A DNA stretch of 34,783 nt from a virus. Made by a program: the position numbers and the translations under genes. Shown in pieces: positions 6,908-27,549 of the stretch (positions within the stretch are counted from its first letter, which is position 1; every line of letters begins with the position of its first letter). The stretch lies in IMG/VR virus record IMGVR_UViG_3300048839_000573, positions 1-34,783 of that record. One strand, 5' to 3'. Under the pieces are notes generated by a model, which was not told the origin of the DNA, did not search any database, and saw only the letters and a program-made list of their open reading frames with translations.

Positions 6908-7999
6908 TTAAGCGCCGTCAAACAGGCTGAGCTGCTTGGCTCCATTGCTTAGTACGGTGGGCTTGTGCGGATCATCATTCTGCAAGCGCAGGCGGGCGAT
7001 CTGCACGTATTCCTCATTCATGTCGCACGCGATGAAGCGCCGCCCTAGACGTTGCGCCGCAATTGCGGTCGTGCCGCTGCCTGCAAACGGATCGAGCACC
7101 AGCGCGCCCGGCCGGGTGCTTACCCGTAGAATATGCTCCATCATAGCGACGGGCTTTTGTGTAGGATGCACGCGCTTGCTAGGAGGTTTGAACGTCCACA
7201 CGTTCAGCTCGTTATCGCCAGCTTCATCCAGATAGAACGCCCGCCGCAGGTCTTCGTACTCACGCCGCAGGTCTTCGTACTCACTCCGCAGGTCTTCGTA
7301 CTCACGCCGCAGGTATTCGTACTCACGCCGCAGGTATTGGCCGCCAGATTTACGATTCAGATACTCGCGCATGGCATGATATTGAATTTCTGTCGGAATG
7401 TTGTAGCCCAGCAACCAGTTGCTAACGCAGCCTGTCATGTTGCCAGTTCTGGAGGGGAAAAGCGCTGCAATCTCGCGGTGACTTGCCCCGGCCCGTGCAA
7501 ACTCATCAGCCAAATAATCAGCCAGAACGCCAAGCCTTAATTCTCGCTTTGCGTTTTCATACTGCGCGTGATACCCGTTTTCTTTCATCGCGGGGCTATC
7601 GCCTTCGAGGTGCTCAGCAAAAATCCAATGCTCAGTAACCGGGATATACGTTCTCATCGCGGTGCGATCCGTTTGCAGCGTTGTCGATTGTGACTTCGCC
7701 CACACGATGTTGTTCAGCACTCGAAAGTATTCAGCGATCAGCACTTCAACGCGGGCTTGTAGCTTGTGGCTGCACGCAATATATAGCGAACCGTTCGGAA
7801 CCAGCACCCGCTGAAATTCCTTTACGAACACGCGCAACCATTCAATAAACTCGCTTGTGCTGCGCCATTGCTGATCCCATTCATGCCCTAGCAGAAAATA
7901 CGGCGGATCCGTCACGATGGCATCCACGCTGTTTGCAGGCAGCGCGTTCAGCAGCGTTAAGGCGTCTGTGTGGTGGATTTGGTTAATTAGCTCTTCCAT
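6908..7999 (-). CDS. DNA N4-cytosine/N6-adenine methyltransferase, beta-class order, with heptad-repeat insert and clamp motif
   Basis: The 363-aa enzyme has the catalytic motif TDPPY (30-34) near the N-terminus and the SAM-binding motif DPFAGSGTT (303-311) near the C-terminus, the order of beta-class methyltransferases (N6-adenine or N4-cytosine). HPTQKP precedes the SAM motif, as usual. Between them, where the target-recognition region sits, lies a variable insert with a tandem EYEDLRR heptad (about 221-253). The C-terminus carries QLSLF (356-360), the bacterial beta-clamp pentapeptide. The start is at 7999 (MEELINQIHHTDALTLL), one base overlapping the upstream stop, with AGGGG about 5 nt before; a longer frame would run back through the initiator gene. 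It may protect phage DNA from host restriction, or partner the nuclease encoded two genes upstream. Confidence 0.88.
   Translation of the reverse strand: MEELINQIHHTDALTLLNALPANSVDAIVTDPPYFLLGHEWDQQWRSTSEFIEWLRVFVKEFQRVLVPNGSLYIACSHKLQARVEVLIAEYFRVLNNIVWAKSQSTTLQTDRTAMRTYIPVTEHWIFAEHLEGDSPAMKENGYHAQYENAKRELRLGVLADYLADEFARAGASHREIAALFPSRTGNMTGCVSNWLLGYNIPTEIQYHAMREYLNRKSGGQYLRREYEYLRREYEDLRSEYEDLRREYEDLRRAFYLDEAGDNELNVWTFKPPSKRVHPTQKPVAMMEHILRVSTRPGALVLDPFAGSGTTAIAAQRLGRRFIACDMNEEYVQIARLRLQNDDPHKPTVLSNGAKQLSLFDGA
7242..7339 (-). repeat. 21-bp in-frame tandem repeat in the methyltransferase gene
   Basis: Four full copies and part of a fifth, of a 21-bp unit (7242-7262, 7263-7283, 7284-7304, 7305-7325, then 7326 onward), differ by only one or two bases. 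Being 21 bp they preserve the frame and encode the heptad EYEDLRR. Copy-number change would lengthen or shorten a coiled coil by two turns without breaking the enzyme. Confidence 0.95.
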
Positions 8000-8955
8000 C
8001 ACGCCCCTGCCTGCATTTGCGCCCAGATCGCCGCGCGCGCCTCGTGCTGCTGCTGCCTTTGCTCGCTCTCCTGCCGAGGCTTCTGCAAAGCGCGCCATTC
8101 CAAGATGCTCTTTGGCATGGTGTCAGGCTTGCTGACAAGCGTCAAAGTCGGATGCTGCCCCTTCCACCACTGCGCCCAGGATCGCAATTCGTCGGGCGTG
8201 ACCGGTTGCGCTTTCAATTCCTCATGCACGTATTCGCTAAATGGTGCAATTGGCGTGCCACTCAGCAAGCGCTGGTATTGCACATTGCGCGCGCCCATGT
8301 AGCCCCACACGTCTTCAATGGCGTCATACATGGCGTTACGCTCGCGGGGCTTCTTCTCCTTCTTGGGCTTGGGCGCAGGCGCTATGCTGTTTTTCTCTTG
8401 AGGCAAGGTGTTGGCCTTGGCTTGATCTTCTACCATGGGGTTAGCGGGTTCAGGGTTGGGCGCTTGCTCAGCTTCCTCTGCCAAGTCAGACAGTGGTGAT
8501 GAGGCGGGCGCGTCTAATTGAGCATTCACCATGGTTGAAGTATTTTGCGATAGACCGCGCGTCTGCAAGCCGTCAGGCGTAGCAGCAATAGGTTTTACTG
8601 ATGGTTCTAATGATGGTTCTGGGTGCATGGCTGTGCAAGGGGGGGGTGCACAGTCGTGCAAGGGGGGGGTGCATGGCTGTGCAAGGGGGTACACGTAATA
8701 ACCATTGCTGCGCTGGCCTGTTTTGCTATAGCGCATCACGCGACGAATGTGTCCAAGCGCCTCCAGTCGGGCGATGATTTGCGTAATGCCGCGCTCGCTC
8801 AGCCTTACGCGCCTGGCGATGGTCTTGCGGCTCGGCCAACAATAGCCTTCGTCACTCGCCTGGTCTGCAAGCGCAAGCATAACAAGAAGGTCGTTCCCCT
8901 TGATGTGTTCGCATCCTTCACCGTTCCATATCTGAGTTAGTAGCTGGTTACTCAT
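7999..8955 (-). CDS. Winged-helix replication initiator (phage O-like)
   Basis: The N-terminal 85 residues form a winged helix of the HTH_36/replisome-organiser type: SDEGYCWPSRKTIARRVRLS, then ERGITQIIARLEALGHIRR and a wing with SNGYYVYPL. A long Pro/Glu/Ala-rich disordered linker (about 94-205) leads to a C-terminal helical domain (about 205-300; RNAMYDAIEDVWGYMG) that would contact the helicase or loader. The layout is that of lambda O-type initiators: origin-binding head, linker containing the origin at DNA level, partner-binding tail. Iteron-like repeats lie exactly in the linker-coding region. The gene is coupled as ATGA to the nuclease gene and by one base to the methyltransferase. A plain transcription regulator is less likely given the long C-terminal domain and position. 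Confidence 0.75.
   Translation of the reverse strand: MSNQLLTQIWNGEGCEHIKGNDLLVMLALADQASDEGYCWPSRKTIARRVRLSERGITQIIARLEALGHIRRVMRYSKTGQRSNGYYVYPLAQPCTPPLHDCAPPPCTAMHPEPSLEPSVKPIAATPDGLQTRGLSQNTSTMVNAQLDAPASSPLSDLAEEAEQAPNPEPANPMVEDQAKANTLPQEKNSIAPAPKPKKEKKPRERNAMYDAIEDVWGYMGARNVQYQRLLSGTPIAPFSEYVHEELKAQPVTPDELRSWAQWWKGQHPTLTLVSKPDTMPKSILEWRALQKPRQESEQRQQQHEARAAIWAQMQAGA
8624..8689. repeat. 23-bp iteron-like direct repeats inside the initiator gene (candidate replication origin)
   Basis: Units at 8624-8646, 8647-8669 and 8670-8689 follow TGCA-n6-TGCAAGGGGGGGG (the third lacks three G). The period of 23 bp is not a multiple of three, so the copies are read in different frames and encode different peptides; the similarity is therefore kept at DNA level. 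A 12-bp repeat containing tgatggttct (8599-8620) flanks them. Position in the linker region of an O-like gene matches lambdoid origins. Confidence 0.6.
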
Positions 8956-9488
8956 TTTGGTTGCTCCGCAATCTTCACTTTGTGAATGTTCTGAATATAG
9001 TGTTCAGGGATCAGGACGTTGATAGTAGTTACCTTCGCGTCGGTGGGCACTGAGATTATGCGCGCCTTGTTGCCCTCTGCGATCAGGTAGGCGTGAAAAG
9101 CCTGCTGCAAATTGCACGTCTTGACCTGCCAAATTTCTCCTATTTGGGGGCCGTAGTAAATGACCCATTCAGCAGGGGTGCGCGCGCTCCATCCAATCTG
9201 TACGCTTTTGGAATCGTGATAAACGCGGTTAAGCTCAAAAAGGATGTTACCGCTTTGGCCCAAGTAGTAGTCGCTTTTGACTTCTACTAAGACCCTGCGC
9301 CCATCTTCCATTATGACGCAAAAGTCTACGTCCTGGGCGCGAAACTCTGGAATGTCTCGGAGGTCTTGCACGCTAGCAACGCGCCGCTGACTGCGGAGGT
9401 AGTCCATGATGATCGCCTCTACTTTTGACCCAACTTCCATGTAATGACCACTATAGCTTCGTGCGTCTCTGCTTGGCTCGGCTCTCAT
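8952..9488 (-). CDS. PD-(D/E)XK superfamily nuclease
   Basis: This 178-aa protein carries the core of the PD-(D/E)XK fold: D55 in QDVDFCVIM, a hairpin with DGRRV, then E69-V-K71 in VLVEVKSDYY, giving a D-x13-E-x-K catalytic site on adjacent beta strands. Downstream, GNILFELNRVYHD and AEWVIYYGP add conserved-looking helix and strand elements. It could be a restriction-type endonuclease, a recombination nuclease or a Holliday-junction resolvase-like enzyme; sequence alone does not decide. It sits between a methyltransferase fusion and the initiator, overlapping both genes as ATGA. An internal Met17 (MEVGSKVEAIIMDYL) is an alternative start, but coupling favours 9488. Confidence 0.75.
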   Translation of the reverse strand: MRAEPSRDARSYSGHYMEVGSKVEAIIMDYLRSQRRVASVQDLRDIPEFRAQDVDFCVIMEDGRRVLVEVKSDYYLGQSGNILFELNRVYHDSKSVQIGWSARTPAEWVIYYGPQIGEIWQVKTCNLQQAFHAYLIAEGNKARIISVPTDAKVTTINVLIPEHYIQNIHKVKIAEQPK

Positions 9489-10594
9489 ACGTCATTCCCC
9501 CAAAACGTCCAGCGTTCTCGCCCTTCAACCTGTCGGGCAAATAACTCAAGATATGAAGCGCCCGGATACATGCGCTCGATTATGTCATACACCTGTTGAG
9601 GCTTGCGGCTGTGAAATGTCCTCTGCTCGTCAATATAAAGCACGGGCTTATACTCAGGAAGAAAAGACCCGCGAGAACAAATCCACAGATCCTCGGTCTT
9701 GGAATAGCCATAAAACGCCAATCCCGGCGCTTGGTGTTTGTACCAAGTGAACTTGGTCTTGTACTCAAAGCCCCAAGCCTTACACACCTTCAACCCATCT
9801 TCAAGCAGCGGATTAGTCACCCAAAGGAACAGCACAGCGTTTTCTTCAATGTCAAACTCCTGCAGCACATTGCAGATCGCACCGGTGGGCATGGTGTCGT
9901 ATTGGCTTTGTGCTGAACCATCAAAGCCTGAATTGTTGTACTGCCAAGGAGGGTCAGCATAAATGACGTTAAACGACTGATGTGGAATTGCAGCGGCTCG
10001 CCTTTCGGCCCTTACTTCTGCTTGTTCCGCCTTCTTCACTTCCCGCTTGGCCTCTTGCAGGCTTAGCTCGCCCGCTTCCACGCGCTGCAACAATTCAGGC
10101 GCGCGCTCCTGCAGGCGCTTGGCTTCGCTGACGTACCCATGGCCTACGCCCATCGCGGCGGCCGCGGCTCGGTCAGCGTGCACAGGTTCAGGATCAATCG
10201 CTTTTCCCAAATTTGGGAAAAGCGATTTTGCTTCATCAGATTTCCTATCCCCACCCGCTGCCCGCTGGCGTTCCTTGGCCTGTGCTTCATAAATCGGTAG
10301 CAACCTGACTGCAATTGCTGCGCGCTGGCTGGCGGTGAGGTGGCGGCGCGTGGCATTCATGGCGATCACAAATGCAAGCGCTTCTTCGTCACTGCCTCGG
10401 AACTGTTCAAAGCGCGGTTCAATGCCTTCGCGCTGGCAGGCTTCATAGCGGTGGCGTCCGTCAAGGATGCGATCCTGGTATAGCACAATGCTGGTTAACA
10501 ACCCGTGCTCTTTCACGCTTGCGCAAAGCTCAGCAAGCTCGCCCTCGGTCAGACGCGGAAACAAATTCGCGTATTCATGCGGTTCATATAGCAT
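9485..10594 (-). CDS. ParB-like domain fused to MT-A70 N6-adenine methyltransferase
   Basis: The start is the ATG at 10594 (MLYEPHEYANLFPRLTEGEL), with GGAG 7 nt upstream; the longer frame continues through a structured leader. Residues about 10-110 are a ParB/Srx-like domain with the signature LDGRHRYEAC (44-53) and NATRRHLTASQRA (80-92). A helical linker (about 140-200) leads to an MT-A70 methyltransferase: YADPPWQYNN (212-221) is the catalytic loop, and HSRKP with YLELFAR and FWGN near the end are family landmarks. It should methylate adenine at N6 in DNA, guided by the ParB-like head. Such fusions are known in phages and mobile elements. The stop overlaps the nuclease gene as ATGA, so the two products are probably made together. 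Confidence 0.88.
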   Translation of the reverse strand: MLYEPHEYANLFPRLTEGELAELCASVKEHGLLTSIVLYQDRILDGRHRYEACQREGIEPRFEQFRGSDEEALAFVIAMNATRRHLTASQRAAIAVRLLPIYEAQAKERQRAAGGDRKSDEAKSLFPNLGKAIDPEPVHADRAAAAAMGVGHGYVSEAKRLQERAPELLQRVEAGELSLQEAKREVKKAEQAEVRAERRAAAIPHQSFNVIYADPPWQYNNSGFDGSAQSQYDTMPTGAICNVLQEFDIEENAVLFLWVTNPLLEDGLKVCKAWGFEYKTKFTWYKHQAPGLAFYGYSKTEDLWICSRGSFLPEYKPVLYIDEQRTFHSRKPQQVYDIIERMYPGASYLELFARQVEGRERWTFWGNDV

Positions 10595-10617
10595 ACTGCG
10601 CTCCTTTGATTGGATAC

Positions 10618-10649
10618 AAAAAGCCTCGTTCGGATAGCGAAGGAAAGGC
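10618..10649 (-). terminator. Terminator- or attenuator-like hairpin before the ParB/MT-A70 gene
   Basis: On the minus strand, GCCT (10649-10646) and AGGC (10626-10623) enclose a second stem TTCG/CGAA with a 5-nt loop, followed by T5 (10622-10618). The stem is interrupted, so it is weak. It ends only 24 nt before the ATG at 10594, inside the leader of a transcript from the 10788 promoter, so attenuation is as likely as plain termination of the upstream operon. Confidence 0.4.
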
Positions 10650-10656
10650 AAGCAAC

Positions 10657-10700
10657 GCGGGTGACTAGTCCGCTGAAACCTTCGCCCCCCGAAAGAGGCC
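10657..10700 (-). other. Structured leader element, copy B of a twice-occurring hairpin motif
   Basis: GCGG/CCGC (10657-10660 with 10670-10673) closes a loop containing GACTAGT, preceded on the minus strand by a weaker hairpin around GCC/GGC (10684-10699) with a CGAA-containing loop. The same two-hairpin order and the loop YGRCTAGT recur at 12309-12347. It lies in the 218-bp gap between 10594 and 10813. Confidence 0.4.
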
Positions 10701-10787
10701 TTTTGGGTGTTCGTTAGTTTGTGAAGCATCCTGCTTGCCTTGTCTACTCAAACGCAGGTCGTCATCCCGCGCCGCTTCTACTCACTT

Positions 10788-10796
10788 ATTATACCA
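10788..10796 (-). promoter_or_regulatory. Extended -10 promoter before the ParB/MT-A70 operon
   Basis: On the minus strand TGG-TATAAT (10796-10788) is a perfect extended -10 without a recognisable -35. It lies just after the stop of the 81-aa gene at 10813. Transcripts would begin near 10781 and carry a leader of about 190 nt with the hairpins described at 10618-10700. Confidence 0.55.
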
Positions 10797-19276: not shown

Positions 19277-20386
19277 ATGGCGAAGAAAAGCACTATCATC
19301 AACATTGGCGACCCGCGCAGCGAGAGCACCTGGAAGCGCGAGACGATTGACCACGAGAACGCCGGGGAAGTGAACTTCGACGTACTCGAAGCCTATCAGG
19401 AGGCCCTCCACAAGTCGGCTTATGAGGCCAACACGCGCAACTTCCTAGAAGCCTTCGTAGGTTCCCCGGACGCACAAAACATGCTGCGCGATGGCATTCG
19501 CTACATGGCTTTCTCCACGTATCGCGGCATCGAGCCGACGTGGAATAGCTTCGCGCACGTGATGACTTCGACCCGTGAGCAGGAAGAATACCTGCGCGAC
19601 AGCGCTATCGGCACACTGCCCGAAGTTCCGAGCGGTACGGAAGTACCGGAACTGCAAGGCGGCTTCGAGGGTGGCGCGCTCATCAAGAACAAGCGCTATG
19701 CGGGTATCGTGCGCCTCAAGGTGGATGACATCCGCTTTGACCGCATTGGCAAGATCGGGCAGGTTGGCCCTGACCTGGGGCGCAGCGGTCGCATGACCGA
19801 AGAAGAGGTCGTGTATAACGCCATCACCACGACAGCCAACTATACGCGCAACGTGACGACGGGCGACAATGACATTGGCGCAAACACCGAGGCCCTGACC
19901 TTCAACGGCACGGGCTTTGAAAAGGCCGTGAATATCATCAGCACGGCGCGGGATCGCCGCAGCGGCGCTTACCTGGGCTTCCAGCCGGACACCATCATCA
20001 TCGGCCCGCGTATGGAAATCCCGGTCAAGCAGCTTCTGCTGACGGGCGATCTGACGCGCGTGGGTGGCAATACGACCAATGAGGTGCGCGGCACGGGTTC
20101 AGACATCAATCACTATCGTGGCATGATTCAGCGCATCGTGATCTCACCCTGGTTCGGCACGTCCACCGCTTACGGTTGGGCACTGGTCGATAGCTCAGTG
20201 ATGAGCTTCGTCTTCCAGCAGCTGGAGGCGTTCAACGTCGTGCAGGAAAGCCGCGGCGTGACGAGCGAATCGTGGCTCACAACTGACAGCATCCGCTATC
20301 TCGTGCAGGGTTATTTCGGCACGGGCTTCGTGGATGATCGCGCGTGGTTCTATAGCAGCTCCACAACTGCACCCACCGTCAGCTAA
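19277..20386 (+). CDS. Major capsid protein (HK97 fold)
   Basis: 369 aa, in the canonical position after protease/scaffold and decoration genes. The N-terminal arm (1-45) is charged. The core contains AHVMTSTREQEEYLRDSAIG (about 93-112), a Gly-rich E-loop-like segment (PSGTEVPELQGGFEGGALIK), a spine-like region TEEEVVYNAITTTANYTRN and late strands with DTIIIGPRMEIPVKQLLLTG. The C-terminal third (RGMIQRIVISPW) fits the A-domain. It resembles Mu-type/HK97-fold capsid proteins. AGGAGAG lies about 8 nt upstream. A GC hairpin follows the stop. Confidence 0.85.
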   Translation: MAKKSTIINIGDPRSESTWKRETIDHENAGEVNFDVLEAYQEALHKSAYEANTRNFLEAFVGSPDAQNMLRDGIRYMAFSTYRGIEPTWNSFAHVMTSTREQEEYLRDSAIGTLPEVPSGTEVPELQGGFEGGALIKNKRYAGIVRLKVDDIRFDRIGKIGQVGPDLGRSGRMTEEEVVYNAITTTANYTRNVTTGDNDIGANTEALTFNGTGFEKAVNIISTARDRRSGAYLGFQPDTIIIGPRMEIPVKQLLLTGDLTRVGGNTTNEVRGTGSDINHYRGMIQRIVISPWFGTSTAYGWALVDSSVMSFVFQQLEAFNVVQESRGVTSESWLTTDSIRYLVQGYFGTGFVDDRAWFYSSSTTAPTVS

Positions 20387-20897: not shown

Positions 20898-21413
20898 ATG
20901 ACGCTCACGACAGCGCAGCAAATCAGGCTACGCATCCAAGACCAGCCTCGGCGCGCTGACGTGACACGCTACGGGGATGGTACAGCCACGACCTTCTACA
21001 CAGAGCAGGCCAACCTGACGAGCGCATCGGCCTTTGTGCCTGCGGCGGGCGGTTGGTCTGCAACGGGTTGCTCATTCGACGCGAGTGGCATTGTCAGCTT
21101 CAGTGGCGTAGTGAGTGCCAATTCAGCCTTTCGCCTGACTTACACATACAGCGTGTTCAGCGATGGCGAGATTGCCCATTTCAACACAGTAGGCGGCGGT
21201 GTGTTGGGCGCAAGTTTGGAGGCGGTACAAGCCCTCATGTTTGACAGCCTCAAGCGGGCGTCATGGCGTGCCCCGGATGGCTCATCCTATGACGATACGC
21301 GGGCGATGGACATGCTTAACTCGCTGTATGCTAAGCTGAAGGAAGAGCAGCACGAGCAGGCAGACCTGAGCGCGGGCTTGCAGTCGTGGTCGATCACACA
21401 AGAGGAGATTTAG
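20898..21413 (+). CDS. Putative head-tail connector (adaptor) protein
   Basis: 171 aa. The layout resembles adaptor proteins: an N-terminal segment with QQIRLRIQDQPRRADVTRYG, an inserted beta domain (about 30-100), and a helical C-terminus (LEAVQALMFDSLKRASWRAP, about 97-116) with KLKEEQHEQADLSAGLQSWS. The beta insert (TATTFYTEQANLTSASAFVP) is unusual for a connector and looks like a small surface-exposed fold. It lies 1 nt after the preceding gene and 3 nt before the next. Assignment is by position and helix pattern. Confidence 0.6.
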   Translation: MTLTTAQQIRLRIQDQPRRADVTRYGDGTATTFYTEQANLTSASAFVPAAGGWSATGCSFDASGIVSFSGVVSANSAFRLTYTYSVFSDGEIAHFNTVGGGVLGASLEAVQALMFDSLKRASWRAPDGSSYDDTRAMDMLNSLYAKLKEEQHEQADLSAGLQSWSITQEEI

Positions 21414-21416
21414 GCC

Positions 21417-21794
21417 ATGTATCGGGGCGCAAAGGGCAAGAAGCGCATCACGGACAATACGCGCCACATCCAGGAGCAGCATGGCGAGACAGCCACGTGG
21501 CGGCGTTATGTGAGCGCGCTAACGGGCGTAAGTGTGGCAGGCTTTGGCCCGACGCCCTATTATGCTGAGCGCCTCATCACGGCTCTTTTTTATCAGGATC
21601 AGGCGCTGAAGGAAGCCCAAACCGAGGCGGGGCAGTCGACTAACGCGCGCTTCCGCGTGACGGTCAGTGAACCACTCACGGCGCAGGATGAGCTAGTGTG
21701 GCGTGGCTTCACCTTCCGCATTGAGAGCGAGAGCCAACCGCAGCGCATCAATAACACGTATAGCTATATCATAGCCAAAGGACAGGACACATGA
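21417..21794 (+). CDS. Putative head-closure protein
   Basis: 125 aa, in the usual head-closure slot after the adaptor. It starts MYRGAKGKKRITDNTRHIQE and has a beta-rich C-terminus (LVWRGFTFRIESESQPQRIN) in keeping with the small beta-barrel of stopper proteins, which plug the connector after packaging. The match is by position, length and predicted fold. The stop overlaps the next ATG as ATGA. Confidence 0.6.
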   Translation: MYRGAKGKKRITDNTRHIQEQHGETATWRRYVSALTGVSVAGFGPTPYYAERLITALFYQDQALKEAQTEAGQSTNARFRVTVSEPLTAQDELVWRGFTFRIESESQPQRINNTYSYIIAKGQDT

Positions 21795-22246
21795 CGCTAA
21801 ACTACCCTAGCGCGCACGTTATACCCGGCGTGACTACCGCGAGCGCCTACAGTGCTTATGACACGGTGGGCAGCGCCTTTGAAGTGCCGCTCGTGATCGG
21901 CAGCAAGGACGGCCTGATTACGCAGGTCTCTGTGTACGACAATGGCACGGGCAACGGCAACCTTGCCTTCCATTTCTTCGCCCGCCCGCCTTCGGCTCAA
22001 GTCGATGGCACGACCTTTACCATTGCCGACGCGGACCGCTGGCATCACCTGGGCGTGATTAGTGGCAGCACGTGGGTCACGGCGGGCACGGCGCGCAACA
22101 TGATGCAAATCAGCGACCAGCACTTGATTCTGCGTAACTTTTCTGGCAATCGCTCGGTATGGGTGAATGCTGTGGCGCTGGCGGCGGTCACGTTCGGCGC
22201 GACGGCTTCGGCGCAGGCGCTGAGCGTAAGGACACTGGAGGGGTAA
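21791..22246 (+). CDS. Hypothetical virion-type beta protein before the glycosylation cassette (151 aa)
   Basis: The product is Ser/Thr/Gly-rich and beta, starting MTLNYPSAHVIPGVTTASAY, with a jelly-roll-like pattern (GLITQVSVYDNGTGNGNLAF, then NRSVWVNAVALAAV). Such proteins are common as head fibres or accessory virion proteins. It is translated with the head-closure gene (ATGA) and immediately precedes the GT4 gene, which makes it one plausible acceptor for the glycans. No family is recognised with certainty. Confidence 0.7.
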   Translation: MTLNYPSAHVIPGVTTASAYSAYDTVGSAFEVPLVIGSKDGLITQVSVYDNGTGNGNLAFHFFARPPSAQVDGTTFTIADADRWHHLGVISGSTWVTAGTARNMMQISDQHLILRNFSGNRSVWVNAVALAAVTFGATASAQALSVRTLEG

Positions 22247-22248
22247 TC

Positions 22249-23418
22249 GTGCCTAAAATATTCATCCTGAGCGATAGCGGCGTGCCTAGCGGCTACGGGA
22301 GGATCGCGGATGAGATTGGCACGCGCCTCAAAGCCCGGAATTATGAAGTCATGGCGGCTTCGCTGCAATATGACGGGTTACTCCCGCCAATGCACGAGGG
22401 CGCGCCTTTGCCCTATTGGGTAGGGTCACTCGCAGGCCATCCCGATTGGTTGCAGAAGACCGTTAACATGATCGGCGCTTGGGGGCCTGATCTGGTGCTG
22501 AGTATTCAGGACTTTCCCTACCATGAGCAGCTCTATAATAGCGGCCTCGACTGGTCGCAGTATGGCCGCATTCTCATCACGCCCGTCGATGGCGTGCCCA
22601 TCTTCCCTGCTTGGCTCGATACGCTGGCCAAAGCTGACGAAGCCTTCACCATCTCGCGCTTCGGCAAGCAGGCATTCGCCAAAGCTGGGCATGAGGTGGG
22701 CCTGTGCATTCCGGGCGTGAACCTGAGCGCCTTCTACAAGATGCGCGACGATGAGCGGGCAGAACTGCGCAAGAAACTTGGCATTGAAGAGGGCGCATTC
22801 GTGGTAGGCACAGTCGCGATGAATCAAGGGCGCAAGTGCATTAGCTTGATGCTTCGCGCCTTCTTCGAGTTTGCGCAGGATAAGCCAAAGGCTCGCTATC
22901 TGGTCGATATGGACGCGGTCAGCCCGGCGGGTTGGGACATCCCGCAGCTTTGTAAGTCGTTTGGTTGGGATGAGAGCAAGCTCATCTACAAGCATCAGGC
23001 GCTCGCGGCGGGCCTGTTTGAATTGCGCGAGCGCTATAACGTGATGGATGCGCATATGGTCATTAGCCACCGTGAGGGCTATGGCCTGCCTTTGGTAGAG
23101 GCGATGGCTTGCGGCGTCGTATCGATGGCGCTCGACTATTGCAGCGGTACGGAGATAGTCAGCGGGCGCGGATGCCTCATCAAACCCATCCCTTACAGCA
23201 CGCCGGGCACGTGGGGCAACGCTGAAGACAAGTATCCCGATATGGACGATTTGAAAGCGCAGTTGCAGCGCTTGTATGAGGACGCGCCGTATCGTGCGCA
23301 GATGGCCGAGGCGGGCATGGCATGGGCGCGCACGCAGACATGGGACGCAGCAGCGGATAACGTGATCGCAGGCGTGGAGCGCGTGTTGAAGAAGCGCGCC
23401 CCTCTGCTAGTCGGATAG
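22249..23418 (+). CDS. GT4-family glycosyltransferase
   Basis: The start is a GTG at 22249 with GGAGGGG 5 nt upstream; the longer frame runs into the previous gene. The 389-aa enzyme has the GT-B two-domain plan: an N-terminal Rossmann domain beginning VPKIFILSDSGVPSGYGRIA, and a C-terminal domain with VGTVAMNQGRKCISLMLRAF, then HREGYGLPLVEAMACGV (about 280-296), the E-x7-E-type sugar-nucleotide motif of GT4 enzymes. Donor and acceptor are unknown. No signal peptide is seen, so it acts in the cytoplasm. The family also contains many LPS and capsule enzymes. Confidence 0.9.
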   Translation: MPKIFILSDSGVPSGYGRIADEIGTRLKARNYEVMAASLQYDGLLPPMHEGAPLPYWVGSLAGHPDWLQKTVNMIGAWGPDLVLSIQDFPYHEQLYNSGLDWSQYGRILITPVDGVPIFPAWLDTLAKADEAFTISRFGKQAFAKAGHEVGLCIPGVNLSAFYKMRDDERAELRKKLGIEEGAFVVGTVAMNQGRKCISLMLRAFFEFAQDKPKARYLVDMDAVSPAGWDIPQLCKSFGWDESKLIYKHQALAAGLFELRERYNVMDAHMVISHREGYGLPLVEAMACGVVSMALDYCSGTEIVSGRGCLIKPIPYSTPGTWGNAEDKYPDMDDLKAQLQRLYEDAPYRAQMAEAGMAWARTQTWDAAADNVIAGVERVLKKRAPLLVG

Positions 23419-23420
23419 TA

Positions 23421-23429
23421 TGGTATAAT
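23421..23429 (+). promoter_or_regulatory. Extended -10 promoter inside the late arm
   Basis: TGG-TATAAT (23421-23429), a perfect extended -10, lies in the only real gap of the cassette (23419-23462). No -35 is evident. The expected start is near 23436, inside the left half of the inverted repeat at 23431-23462. Confidence 0.6.
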
Positions 23430-23430
23430 T

Positions 23431-23462
23431 GGGGTAACGACTAATACAGGAGGCGTTACCCC
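23431..23462 (+). promoter_or_regulatory. Perfect 9-bp inverted repeat enclosing the Shine-Dalgarno
   Basis: GGGGTAACG (23431-23439) and CGTTACCCC (23454-23462) are perfect complements. The 14-nt loop contains AGGAGG, and the ATG follows the right arm directly. In read-through mRNA the hairpin would hide the ribosome site and hold the start codon; in DNA the repeat sits at the start point of the 23421 promoter and could be an operator. Confidence 0.7.
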
Positions 23463-23609
23463 ATGATTATCCTCAAGGCTTTGCTTTTTCTGCTCATGAT
23501 CTTTGCAATCTTCGTGTTTGTGGTGACGTGCATGGCCGGGCTATGGCCGCTGCCCGTGTTTGCCTTTGCAGCAAGCGCCATGTCGTATTACGCTGGGCGT
23601 GCGCTATGA
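23463..23609 (+). CDS. Small membrane protein with two transmembrane helices (48 aa)
   Basis: Starts MIILKALLFLLMIFAIFVFV; residues about 6-25 and 27-44 are hydrophobic helices with a WPLP turn between them, ending YYAGRAL. AGGAGG lies 9 nt before the ATG and the stop overlaps the next ATG as ATGA. Two short helices suit a holin-like or a membrane-anchoring role, for instance docking the glycosyltransferases at lipid-linked donors. Neither is shown by the sequence. It is preceded by its own promoter and a regulated-looking ribosome site. Confidence 0.7.
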   Translation: MIILKALLFLLMIFAIFVFVVTCMAGLWPLPVFAFAASAMSYYAGRAL

Positions 23610-23887
23610 CCTTTTACCACGCATCACATATTGCGGACGTGTGGCCCGCTTCTCCGTTTTGGCTAGTCTTCTTCGATGGTGAAGCGGAGTGGCTAGGTTG
23701 CTTTGATCGCTTCGTAGACGTCATGCATTTCATCATCGCGCAGCGCATGACGGCTAACCCGGTGGAAATCAAGGCCATTTATGAAGATGGTGCGATCCTG
23801 CTCAGTCACGAATACAGCGCAGAGCTAGAGGCCGTGATAAATGGCGTGAAAGAGACGCTGCGCAAAATGAACGGGGTGCAGGAATGA
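23606..23887 (+). CDS. Hypothetical protein of the glycosylation cassette (93 aa)
   Basis: The ATG at 23606 (MTFYHASHIADVWPASPFWL) overlaps the stop of the membrane peptide as ATGA, so the longer frame is rejected. The product has aromatic segments (WLVFFDGEAEWLGCFDRFVD) and a helical C-terminus. It ends in an ATGA overlap with the GT2 gene. No family is recognised. Confidence 0.75.
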   Translation: MTFYHASHIADVWPASPFWLVFFDGEAEWLGCFDRFVDVMHFIIAQRMTANPVEIKAIYEDGAILLSHEYSAELEAVINGVKETLRKMNGVQE

Positions 23888-24648
23888 GAATTAGCGTGAT
23901 AGTACCCGCCTACAACGACCTCGTGAGTGTCATGACGGCGCTCAACAGTTTGCAAGCGCTGAGCATTGACCGCGAGAATATCGAGTGGCTCGTGCAGGAT
24001 GATGCAAGTCCAGCGCTCTTCCTGCCCGCGCTCATCCCCAACGCCGCTACTGCGCGCAACGTGAATAACCTTGGCTTTGCGGGCAATTGCAATGCAGGGG
24101 CTAAGCGGGCAGCGGGAGATGTGCTGCTTTTCGTCAATCAGGACGTTTATGGCGTGCCTGAGTTCTCGCATGGTTGGGATGAAGCGCTGCGGGCGGCTTT
24201 CACGGACCCGCGTGTGGGCATTGTTGGTGCGCGTCTGCTCTTCCCCGATGGGCGCATTCAAAGCGCGGGTGGCCTGTTCGATGCAAAGGCCCAGCCTTAC
24301 CACCGCTGCCTCGGCTACAAAAACCCGCAGTACTGGGAAGTAGGTGAAGAGCGCACGGTGGAATGGGTGACGGGCGCAGCGCTGGCCATTCGGCGCGATC
24401 TGTTCGAGCGACTGGGCGGCTTTGATGAGGGTTACAGGATGTATTTTGAGGACGTGGACTTGTGCTTGCAGGCGAAGGAAGCGGGGTATTTAACGCTCTA
24501 CGCGCCATCGGTCACGCTCATTCACAAAGTAGGCTCCACAGGCGGCTCGCCCTACTTTGCAGCATCGGCGGCGCGCTTTCGTGTGAAGTGGCTAGAGAGT
24601 GGTAAGCTTCGCCCAGGCGGGCGAGCAGTCTATGCGAGTTTCTGGTAA
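23884..24648 (+). CDS. GT2-family glycosyltransferase (rhamnosyltransferase-like)
   Basis: 254 aa with a clear GT-A fold. The N-terminus ISVIVPAYNDLVSVMTALNS is the GT2 hallmark, QDDAS (38-42) is the first acidic motif, LLFVNQDVYG (81-90) holds the DxD-equivalent, and WVTGAALAIRRDLFERLGGF precedes the catalytic ED in MYFEDVDLCLQAKEAGY. The arrangement matches the rhamnosyltransferase branch (NNLGFAGNCNAG is typical). It should add a sugar from a nucleotide donor to a cytoplasmic acceptor. It overlaps the preceding gene as ATGA. Confidence 0.92.
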   Translation: MRISVIVPAYNDLVSVMTALNSLQALSIDRENIEWLVQDDASPALFLPALIPNAATARNVNNLGFAGNCNAGAKRAAGDVLLFVNQDVYGVPEFSHGWDEALRAAFTDPRVGIVGARLLFPDGRIQSAGGLFDAKAQPYHRCLGYKNPQYWEVGEERTVEWVTGAALAIRRDLFERLGGFDEGYRMYFEDVDLCLQAKEAGYLTLYAPSVTLIHKVGSTGGSPYFAASAARFRVKWLESGKLRPGGRAVYASFW

Positions 24649-24664
24649 ACAGGAGGAATGACTG

Positions 24665-25138
24665 ATGACAAAGAAGTGGAAATACTACGTTCTGCACAAG
24701 CACTCCCCTAACAACATCGAAGTTAAGGGGGGGTGTAACTTGCCTGAAGAGGCCCTTACTATCCCCGGTAACTGGTTGTGTATAAGAGCAAGTAAGACCA
24801 TTGACGAAGATGAAGTTCTCATCAATGGGGTCTATCGAAAGGTGGCAGATCGGGAGTTCTTGTATCGCGGGCAGTTTGACGACTACCAATATACAGAGAT
24901 GTCGTGGCGCTGGCTTGATGGCACAATTACCACTATGGGCGTAATTGGCAGGCCCAACTATTGGGCGGGGCGTCTGTTTGGCAATTACTCTTCGCTTTAT
25001 AACCCGCCTGTGCGCCCCGATATTGTGTATAAGGGGCAATGGACGGGGCCGCGAAAGGATGAGCATATCATCTATGCTAGTCCTCGATATGAGTGGATGG
25101 ACAACACAGCGCAGTTTATTACACGGGAGAATGACTGA
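24665..25138 (+). CDS. Hypothetical protein of the glycosylation cassette (157 aa)
   Basis: Starts MTKKWKYYVLHKHSPNNIEV and is rich in Trp and Tyr. It has beta-type stretches (GVYRKVADREFLYRGQFDDY) and a C-terminus RYEWMDNTAQFITREND. AGGAGG-like AGGAGGAATGACTG precedes the ATG. Base usage appears more AT-rich than its neighbours (by eye), which could reflect recent acquisition. Function unknown. Confidence 0.74.
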   Translation: MTKKWKYYVLHKHSPNNIEVKGGCNLPEEALTIPGNWLCIRASKTIDEDEVLINGVYRKVADREFLYRGQFDDYQYTEMSWRWLDGTITTMGVIGRPNYWAGRLFGNYSSLYNPPVRPDIVYKGQWTGPRKDEHIIYASPRYEWMDNTAQFITREND

Positions 25139-25620
25139 TGTACGCACTATTCAGCACTGACATTGACGACCACGACACCTATCATGGCATGTTCGCCACG
25201 CTTGAGGAAGTGGCGGAGGCGATCAAGGAAAACATAGAGCAGCGCTGGCCCCGTCAGGCCGTCGTGTATGACGAGACACGCTGCATTGGCTGGCTTGACG
25301 TTGAAGACAGCGATGAGACCGAAACCACCGAAAACGGGAAAACGCTTGTAAGGGCACATCGGCGCGCATGGTGGCGCAGCGATGATGGCGACCCTGTTTT
25401 TATCGCCGAGATGGACCTGCAGTGGGAAGAGGTTCCATATGCTTCGATTTTTTGGGGAAATCAGGGAGCCGGAGAGATTCAGTTGAGTCAGGATAGCCGA
25501 GATACCGAGGCCGCCATATTGAAAGCGATGTACGCTACAGGTAATCCACGCCCACAAATCACCGTAACCGGGTATTGGCCCATGCACGACTACAAGCGCA
25601 CGGATGACCCGCTAACATGA
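25138..25620 (+). CDS. Hypothetical acidic protein of the glycosylation cassette (160 aa)
   Basis: Starts MYALFSTDIDDHDTYHGMFA. An N-terminal alpha/beta part (LEEVAEAIKENIEQRWPRQA) is followed by strands with many Asp and Glu (WLDVEDSDETETTENGKTLV). The ATG overlaps the preceding stop by one base (TGATG) and the gene ends in ATGA with the next glycosyltransferase. No family is recognised. Confidence 0.76.
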   Translation: MYALFSTDIDDHDTYHGMFATLEEVAEAIKENIEQRWPRQAVVYDETRCIGWLDVEDSDETETTENGKTLVRAHRRAWWRSDDGDPVFIAEMDLQWEEVPYASIFWGNQGAGEIQLSQDSRDTEAAILKAMYATGNPRPQITVTGYWPMHDYKRTDDPLT

Positions 25621-26471
25621 ACATCCTTATACTTGCCAATCACTACGCCGTCGCATCGGGGCGCTATTGTCTCGATGCGCTGCGGCGCTTGGGGCACACC
25701 GTGTATAGCGTGGGGCCGGAGCACGGCGGCTTCATCTGGGGCTTGAAGTTGCCTGATGCATTCACCTGGCAACCGAACCCGCCTTATCCTGACACGCCGA
25801 TTGACCTGATCCTCATCATGGACAGCGACCCGGCGCTATTGCCCTATGCGCCCGTGTTGCGCGAGCAGTACAAAGCGCCTGTCGTAGTCTATGGTGTGGA
25901 CAATCACGTGAGGGACTACCGCGCGGCGCAGGCTGACCATTACTTTCTCGCGCACAAGGCCGTGACTATACAGCCATTCGAGGACAATACAACGTGGCTT
26001 CCATGCGCCTATGACCCGCTTTTCACGCCTTCGCTCATCCCAATGGGCAAGCGGCGTTATGACGTGGTGCTGCTGGGCGTGATGTATGAGCAGCGGCGCG
26101 CGTTGGTGGAGAGACTGCGGGCGGCGGGCTTGAGCGTACTAGCGGGCACGGGCTTGGTCTATGAGGCTTACCGAGACGCGCATCATGATGCACGCATCAG
26201 CCTATGTCTGAGCGCGCGCGGGGACGTGGCGCAGCGCATTTTTGAGAGCGCCGCGATGGGTTGCTGCATTGTCAGCGATCCGTGCGGAGATTTTGAAGCG
26301 CTGGGCATTCCGGGCGTGTGGGAAATTGAGACCGACGCAGTGGATGAGATTCGCACAATCCTTGCTTTCCCCGCTATGCTGGAAGAAAAGGCGCAGCAGG
26401 CACAAACATGGGCCATGCCTCACACGTGGGATGCGCGATGCAAGGCGATTGTCGATTGGAGACACGCATGA
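25617..26471 (+). CDS. GT-B glycosyltransferase, CgeB-like
   Basis: 284 aa, beginning MNILILANHYAVASGRYCLD. The N-terminal Rossmann half ends near residue 140 (TTWLPCAYDPLFTP). The C-terminal half has RRYDVVLLGVMYEQRRALVE, ISLCLSARGDVAQRIFESAA and MGCCIVSDPCGDFEALG, the pattern of the CgeB/Glyco_trans_1_2 branch, in which E of the RxFE segment contacts the sugar nucleotide. It is shorter than most GT-B enzymes but both halves are present. It overlaps the neighbouring genes as ATGA on both sides. Donor and acceptor unknown. Confidence 0.82.
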   Translation: MNILILANHYAVASGRYCLDALRRLGHTVYSVGPEHGGFIWGLKLPDAFTWQPNPPYPDTPIDLILIMDSDPALLPYAPVLREQYKAPVVVYGVDNHVRDYRAAQADHYFLAHKAVTIQPFEDNTTWLPCAYDPLFTPSLIPMGKRRYDVVLLGVMYEQRRALVERLRAAGLSVLAGTGLVYEAYRDAHHDARISLCLSARGDVAQRIFESAAMGCCIVSDPCGDFEALGIPGVWEIETDAVDEIRTILAFPAMLEEKAQQAQTWAMPHTWDARCKAIVDWRHA

Positions 26472-27109
26472 ATCAGAAACCCTATTTGCACTTAGGCGCA
26501 GGGACCATTACACTACCGGGTACACGGCCTGCGCATCATCATCTGATAGACGCGGCCATCTATGATTACCCGCTGTGGCATAACGTGGACAAAAACAAGG
26601 AGGTGGGCATTGATGAGACCGTCGACCTCTTCACCTACCCCTGGCCCTGGAAAGATAATAGTTTCGACGGCGCGCTGCTGGCGCATCTGGTCGAACATAT
26701 CCCGCACGCCATTCACACGCGGGGCGTTAGTGAGCGAGCAGTGGCGCTCAGTAAGTGCCAAGACGGTTGGTACGCCTTCATGGCGGAGTTGTATCGCGTC
26801 CTCACGCCTGGCGCAGTGGCGCACATTCTCTGCCCGTATGGTTGGAGCAACGGCGCGATCACGGACCCATCGCATACGCGCCTCATCACCGAACAGACCT
26901 TTACGCACTCGCTCACGCCATCGGAAGAGGGCGCGCCCTTTCGCTACAATACCGCGCACGTGAATTTGCGATTGATGAGCCAACCCACCTACACGCTCAC
27001 GCCGATGTTTGCGCACTTGCAGGAAGACCCGCAGGCGCTGTTAGAGGCATTCCAAACGAGGATCAACGTGGCGTATGAGATTTACGTGCGATTGGAGGCG
27101 ATCAAATGA
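26468..27109 (+). CDS. Class I SAM-dependent methyltransferase of the glycosylation cassette
   Basis: The ATG at 26468 overlaps the preceding stop as ATGA, giving 213 aa. The N-terminus LHLGAGTITLPG (7-18) is a variant of the SAM-binding glycine motif, and VDLFTYPWPWKDNSFDGALL then AHLVEHIPH (about 52-80) is the motif III/IV region of Methyltransf_11 enzymes often found in glycan gene clusters. DPPY-type DNA motifs are absent, so it is not a DNA methyltransferase. O-methylation of a transferred sugar is the obvious inference from context. It overlaps the gp10-like gene by 4 nt. Confidence 0.82.
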   Translation: MNQKPYLHLGAGTITLPGTRPAHHHLIDAAIYDYPLWHNVDKNKEVGIDETVDLFTYPWPWKDNSFDGALLAHLVEHIPHAIHTRGVSERAVALSKCQDGWYAFMAELYRVLTPGAVAHILCPYGWSNGAITDPSHTRLITEQTFTHSLTPSEEGAPFRYNTAHVNLRLMSQPTYTLTPMFAHLQEDPQALLEAFQTRINVAYEIYVRLEAIK

Positions 27110-27549
27110 AGGTCAGCATAGACTACACCGAACTCACGCGTGAGGTACAGCGAAGCGAAAAGCTCAAGCCGGTCATGCGGGAACGAATGAAAAAGCGATT
27201 GCGTGTGGTATCATTGGAGTTGATGGGCGAGATTAAAAAGCGAATGCCGGTAGACACGGGACGCGCGCGCGCAAGCTGGGGCGCATTCACGCCGGAGTTC
27301 CTGCGGCAACTGGGGCCGGAAGTGGACCCAAGTGATGCGGTCTGGATCGTGGGGCAGGATGGCTTTGAGATTACGCAGGGAACGCGCGTGCCCTATGTGG
27401 CCAACCTGAACGAAGGCTCATCCATGCAAGCGCCCGCCGGGTTTATTGACGCGGAAGCGACCAAAGCGGCGGACAAGCTGGCAAAGGGCATTGCGGAAGA
27501 TGTGGAGGGAGTGATCCTTGACGACAATTCACCCGAGCTCCGTATTTAA
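27106..27549 (+). CDS. HK97 gp10-like neck/tail-completion protein
   Basis: 147 aa with the family signature KKRMPVDTGRARASWGAF (about 45-62), preceded by a helix (MRERMKKRLRVVSLELMGEI) and followed by PYVANLNEGSSMQAPAGF, as in HK97 gp10-type proteins of the neck. It marks the return to canonical morphogenesis order after the insert. Its start overlaps the methyltransferase stop (ATGA), so the insert is co-translated with it. The next gene starts within its 3' end. Confidence 0.88.
   Translation: MKVSIDYTELTREVQRSEKLKPVMRERMKKRLRVVSLELMGEIKKRMPVDTGRARASWGAFTPEFLRQLGPEVDPSDAVWIVGQDGFEITQGTRVPYVANLNEGSSMQAPAGFIDAEATKAADKLAKGIAEDVEGVILDDNSPELRI

Follow-up and report, generated by a model that had tools for sequence, protein, structure and literature searches.

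Glycosyltransferase and methyltransferase genes at the head–neck junction of an uncultured phage lineage form an inherited module that probably glycosylates the virion

Why are sugar-transferring enzymes encoded amid the virion genes of a phage? This question is raised by IMGVR_UViG_3300048839_000573, an IMG/VR virus record of unknown completeness whose entire length of 34,783 bases was analyzed (termed the window). Its right arm encodes TerS, TerL, the portal, a minor head protein, a protein at the protease position, the major capsid protein (MCP), head-completion genes, a gp10-like neck gene and tail genes. Eight rightward open reading frames (ORFs) fill positions 22249–27109 between the head-completion genes and the HK97-gp10/neck gene, with a base composition matching their surroundings. 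An initial annotation had described them as an eight-gene cassette of glycosyltransferases (GTs), a methyltransferase (MT) and further proteins, inserted into the morphogenesis operon and decorating the particle. All eight ORFs were present at the place and on the strand it gave, with the gp10-like neck gene as right border, and the family calls GT4, GT2 and CgeB-like all exceeded the curated Pfam cut-offs. Only four of the eight genes, those for the three GTs and the MT, are conserved in relatives, and the most likely product of this four-enzyme module is a short methylated glycan attached to at least one virion protein of the phage itself.

Relatives were retrieved from IMG/VR via the MCP alone, with the window plus one contig originally detected by its GT4 as seeds, so that the other MCP hits were blind to GT content. 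Single window proteins (MCP, CgeB) gave no matches as IMG/VR queries and two-member alignments were needed; a six-phage GT4 alignment was too divergent as a query. The MCPs of the uncultured clade obtained in this way were 36–53% identical, and the best match among named phages was the MCP of Myxococcus phage Mx4 at 24%. Further contigs were added through a GT2 search, resulting in a total of 24 contigs that span the interval from head completion to gp10, or 19 distinct loci after merging contigs with identical GT2 genes (L016 with L017, L020 with L024, and L050–L053). MCP-bearing contigs without the enzymes (L027, L029, L031, L033, L034) end before the interval and were not counted as spanning. 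GT2 matches in phage records, mostly unannotated faecal scaffolds, were not used as evidence, the CgeB-like protein gave no tblastn match among named phages, and near-identical contigs were too alike for a selection test.

GT4, GT2 and MT lie within the interval on the same strand and in the same order in all 24 spanning contigs (19 distinct), and an orthologue of the CgeB-like GT is present in 22 of them. Because it recurs throughout these contigs, the arrangement is not a matter of chance. Among the GT-blind contigs, all that extend past the head-completion genes continue with GT4 as their next conserved gene, and all that extend as far as gp10 display the order GT4–GT2–CgeB–MT. A GT block far from the virion genes, which the initial annotation had named as evidence against a virion role, was not encountered within the clade, where the linkage holds in 24 of 24 cases.

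The mean identities within the clade were 44–46% for GT4, GT2 and CgeB and 37% for the MT, with 40–43% for the MCP and the tail tube. Moreover, the pairwise identities of all four enzymes correlate with those of the MCP, the protease-position protein, gp10 and the tail tube (n = 15–25, r = 0.38–0.78, permutation p ≤ 0.001). As the enzyme identities thus track those of the MCP, gp10 and the tail tube, the set is, to judge from these comparisons, a core module inherited together with the capsid and tail genes and not freshly inserted, contrary to the earlier description. These data bear directly on a first alternative, namely a hotspot where unrelated sugar genes land in a tolerated gap of the late operon and share no common function. 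Small ORFs and HNH endonuclease genes indeed come and go between the enzymes, and the window contains a promoter-like site and a hairpin after GT4. However, the clade members share orthologues of the four enzymes, in collinear order and inherited along with the capsid genes, and the empty sites expected of a hotspot were not seen among the spanning contigs, making this explanation very unlikely. It is contradicted for the four enzymes and may apply to the filler ORFs.

The catalytic motifs of the enzymes are intact. GT4 keeps its EX7E motif (E276–E284) together with R195–K196 across the clade, and its clade profile gave a full-length hidden Markov model match to PDB 3oy2, the chlorovirus GT B736L. 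Likewise, GT2 keeps QDD, NQD and Y-x-ED-x-D; its clade profile aligns over the full length with polypeptide GalNAc-transferases and its best NCBIfam match was MftF at 2e-27, far under the MftF cut-off, so that both likenesses serve as hints and do not constitute an assignment. The motifs of all three GTs are near-invariant across the clade. For the MT, conserved blocks comprise LxLGxG, NxD, HxxEHxPH and DPxHTR. An AlphaFold model of moderate confidence (pLDDT 64) yielded class I S-adenosylmethionine (SAM) methyltransferases as top PDB matches (E 2.9e-5). Despite the sub-threshold Pfam match, the call as a class I SAM methyltransferase was therefore kept, based on phrog_6636, the conserved motifs including motif I (LxLGxG) and the class I fold of the model.

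Table 1 Features of the window at and around the module.
Feature	Position	Strand	Remarks
Major capsid protein (MCP), clade marker	19277..20386	+	phrog_371 6e-12
MCP C-terminal tail YSSSTTAPTVS, candidate O-glycan acceptor	20351..20383	+	Ser/Thr-rich
Head-completion genes 20898 and 21417 and predicted mostly-beta protein (21791-22246), left border	20898..22246	+	20898 48–61% identical in relatives
GT4 glycosyltransferase (GT-B), first enzyme of conserved module	22249..23418	+	GTG start; PF00534 3.5e-10, phrog_2170 3.1e-22
Extended -10-like site TGGTATAAT, then hairpin	23421..23462	+	In 44-base gap after GT4
Two-helix membrane peptide, 48 amino acids, window-specific, probably accessory	23463..23609	+	Peak hydropathy 3.06; weak phrog_14894 0.018
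93-amino-acid protein of unknown function, window-specific	23606..23887	+	No Pfam, PHROG or NCBIfam match
GT2 glycosyltransferase (GT-A), second enzyme	23884..24648	+	PF00535 1.2e-11
157-amino-acid protein of unknown function, window-specific	24665..25138	+	No Pfam, PHROG or NCBIfam match
160-amino-acid protein of unknown function, window-specific	25138..25620	+	No Pfam, PHROG or NCBIfam match
CgeB-like glycosyltransferase (GT-B), third enzyme	25617..26471	+	PF13524 4e-9, 37.1 bits vs cut-off 25
Class I SAM methyltransferase (MT), last enzyme	26468..27109	+	PF08241 sub-threshold 1.8e-3; phrog_6636 3e-4; 4-base overlap with neck gene
HK97-gp10-like / tail-completion Neck1 gene, fixed right border in spanning contigs	27106..27549	+	PF04883 1.1e-5, phrog_169 3.9e-16

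The remaining four ORFs of the block, the membrane peptide and the proteins starting at 23606, 24665 and 25138, had no homologue among the ORFs occupying the same gaps in relatives, where other small ORFs and HNH endonuclease genes are found. Since they are conserved in no relative, all four are poor candidates for an acceptor or a required factor; a part as required partners is ruled out, and the suggestion that 24665 and 25138 act as acceptors or accessory factors was abandoned. Judged by this pattern, they are probably filler. HNH endonuclease genes lodged within the enzyme module were observed in L017 (12088-12723), L050 (6569-7387) and L022 (16072-16821), where the L022 gene showed phmmer kinship to the L017 one, yet no Pfam match. 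Short hydrophobic peptides also recur near the module (L022 13779-13946 and 18367-18531; L028 16040-16258; L021 7625-8011), with no phmmer link to the window peptide.

How could the module work? GT4, GT2 and the CgeB-like GT would transfer up to three sugars stepwise, provided that all of them act on one glycan, and the MT would add a methyl cap to a sugar. The earlier proposal of a methylated virion glycan thus remains the best-supported reading, with the virion linkage holding across the clade, while its "at least three" transfers become up to three and its target a presumed one. The window and the contigs of six relatives contain no PF01370 epimerase gene, so that the donors are probably host nucleotide sugars, and assembly would proceed in the host cytoplasm during late expression. 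The acceptor is probably a virion protein encoded in the same operon, perhaps the MCP: among the aligned MCPs, each of the nine with a complete C-terminus has a Ser/Thr-rich tail, SSSTTAPTVS or close to it. In mycobacteriophages, capsid and tail-tube subunits have been reported to carry glycans at their C-termini (PMC12619734), which by analogy makes this tail a testable candidate acceptor, no more. The protein encoded at 21791, considered as a possible capsid decoration protein, has a counterpart in only a few relatives, and its low-confidence model (pLDDT 63) is mostly beta with no PDB match at E ≤ 0.001. The benefit of the glycan could be particle protection or altered surface binding; masking from immunity, as previously suggested, is not implied, as those named phages that carry related GT4 genes have free-living bacteria as hosts.

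Several observations weigh against a virion glycan. The position in the late operon shows timing, not target, and distant GT4–GT2 pairs in other contigs sit among aminotransferase and nucleotide-sugar epimerase genes, so that the target is not evident from the enzyme family by itself. In the named relative S-EIVl, GT4 adjoins a primase. Furthermore, donors and step order are not assignable to the three GTs, the co-inheritance signal of the MT was weaker in the first six-genome test, and no cultured clade member was found, the clade being known here from its genes alone. With such distant homologues next to sugar-metabolism genes, it is linkage, co-inheritance and the lack of other machinery that support the virion as the target. 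The best-supported ground consists of the genes and their families, the intact catalytic motifs, the fixed order and position, and the co-inheritance with capsid and tail genes.

The same distant pairs would suit a module that is directed, late in infection, at the surface of the host cell (O-antigen, capsule or wall glycan); released progeny would then escape trapping, or other phages would be kept from superinfecting. Surface-polysaccharide clusters often contain GT4, GT2 and CgeB-like enzymes, and the window encodes a small membrane peptide. However, this peptide is not conserved, the GtrA flippase (PF04138) was absent from all seven records (the window and the contigs of six relatives), and none of the four enzymes has a transmembrane segment and hence the membrane-anchored GT of GtrABC-type clusters is missing among them. 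Surface-modifying genes, moreover, usually act from a prophage or early, not from a late head–tail operon. Taken together, we regard a host-surface target as unlikely. Sugars could also be placed by the GTs on a modified base of the phage DNA as a defence against restriction, since DNA is a known substrate of viral GTs (Pyle 2024, as cited in PMC12619734) and the phage also carries DNA methyltransferases. However, no match to the TET/JBP or thymidylate-synthase-family hydroxymethylases was obtained in any of these seven records, whose relatives' contigs are possibly incomplete. Genes for DNA modification are usually neighbours of replication genes and not located between those for head and neck, and this target is very improbable.

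In the literature surveyed, glycosylated virions are documented for few phages, most of which infect mycobacteria. By published description, Corndog of Cluster O resembles the window in carrying an O-methyltransferase and several GTs inside its virion gene operon. Its O-methyltransferase, two glycosyltransferases and an N-acetylglucosaminyltransferase are located between portal and protease, for which the authors proposed capsid modification (PMC4351075), whereas the window set lies between head completion and gp10. Che8, whose capsids carry covalent glycans according to PMC11256854, citing Freeman 2023, likewise encodes GTs with an O-methyltransferase, gp108 being a fusion of GT2 and O-methyltransferase. 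In contrast to the window set, the Che8 genes are found at the right genome end, unlinked to virion genes. Comparison of the GT4 clade with gp108 and of the GT2 clade with gp110 gave no detectable similarity, and the GT2 clade matched gp109 only weakly (hhalign 54%); membership in this kind of virion glycosylation does not depend on such homology.

Closer arrangements were found outside the mycobacteriophages. Pontimonas phage phiPsal1 shows the order MCP–GT4–MT–GT2–neck with a GT4 homologous at 23%, but its MCP is not detectably related, its MT lies on the opposite strand, its GT2 is not detectably orthologous and the role of the set is a predicted one. The podovirus ctKR88 (Manatee Spring) encodes GTs and two MTs, one of them similar to the window MT, between the MCP and a phage stabilization protein; it differs in being short-tailed and in having other GTs, including a GT2–GT4 fusion. 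A GT and MT set is also found between portal and protease in S-CBS4, and GT genes between the MCP and the head–tail adaptor in Mae-JY09. The arrangement thus recurs in phages with unrelated capsids. In chlorovirus PBCV-1, virus-encoded GTs and SAM methyltransferases of the A064R/A061L pathway equip the major capsid protein with a methylated glycan (PMC9614988), a virus-made product of the kind proposed here, and the GT4 clade matches the structure of the chlorovirus GT B736L. PBCV-1 differs in being a eukaryotic virus with N-linked glycans and multi-domain enzymes, and the acceptor of B736L is itself uncertain. Sets of this kind were already known from a few phages; in the present lineage the set belongs to the core throughout and keeps its gene order. 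That a GT/GT/GT/MT module is conserved to the same degree as the capsid suggests a sugar coat on the particles as a potentially basic and old trait of environmental phages.

The enzyme content at this position varies in deeper relatives. L057 carries an extra GT4, a GT17-type enzyme and two MTs, and L058 an extra GT4 and two MTs, both without CgeB, whereas L049 has two CgeB copies. In a sub-clade, a B12-binding radical SAM protein lies between MT and gp10 (L048 12333-13595, L050 9385-10665), which partly resembles, among others, AprD4 of apramycin biosynthesis, an enzyme of aminoglycoside chemistry. Based on these gene contents, the position is constant and the chemistry appears to change. A broader reading, which we put forward tentatively and hold at somewhat less than even chances, is that the whole uncultured lineage has a mandatory glycan-building station at the head–neck junction, where enzymes (GT4, GT17, a second MT, the B12-radical-SAM enzyme) are swapped or added in place and sister phages display different methylated virion glycans. 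If true, the particles of environmental phages would bear a modular, evolving sugar coat. For experiments on the role of the glycan, the clade offers a defined gene set, a candidate acceptor tail and natural enzyme-swap variants.

The block had further been described as nearly all coupled by overlaps. Most junctions indeed overlap by 1–4 bases, the exceptions being gaps of 44 bases after GT4 and 16 bases after GT2. With its hairpin and extended -10-like site, the first of these gaps indicates that the block is not one uninterrupted coupled unit. The hairpin is a perfect inverted repeat, GGGGTAACG-N14-CGTTACCCC (23431-23462), immediately upstream of the start codon (ATG) of the membrane-peptide gene; its loop contains a GGAGG ribosome site, its folding z-score is -3.2, and it may represent an operator or a translational switch. 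Neither it nor the preceding -10-like site is conserved in relatives. The window contains four perfect extended -10-like sites TGNTATAAT, at 10788(-), 12884(+), 19185(+) and 23421(+), where 0.4 were expected and four were reached in none of 100 shuffles. They lie shortly ahead of a leftward ParB/MT-A70 gene, TerS, the MCP gene and the membrane-peptide gene, respectively, and were not seen at the corresponding places in relatives.

With regard to the host, Thiobacillus was considered and set aside: the single genomic match is a 4.3-kb contig in a Thiobacillus metagenome-assembled genome, which ends before the interval and is too short to trust. In the leftward arm, the ParB/MT-A70 gene (9485-10729, minus strand) combines a ParB-like N-terminal part with a C-terminal MT-A70 methyltransferase domain (PF05063 1.8e-19). 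An N6/N4 DNA methyltransferase (PF01555 4e-45) is encoded at 6908-8098 on the same strand and contains a short LRREYEDLRSEY-type repeat around residues 258–285.

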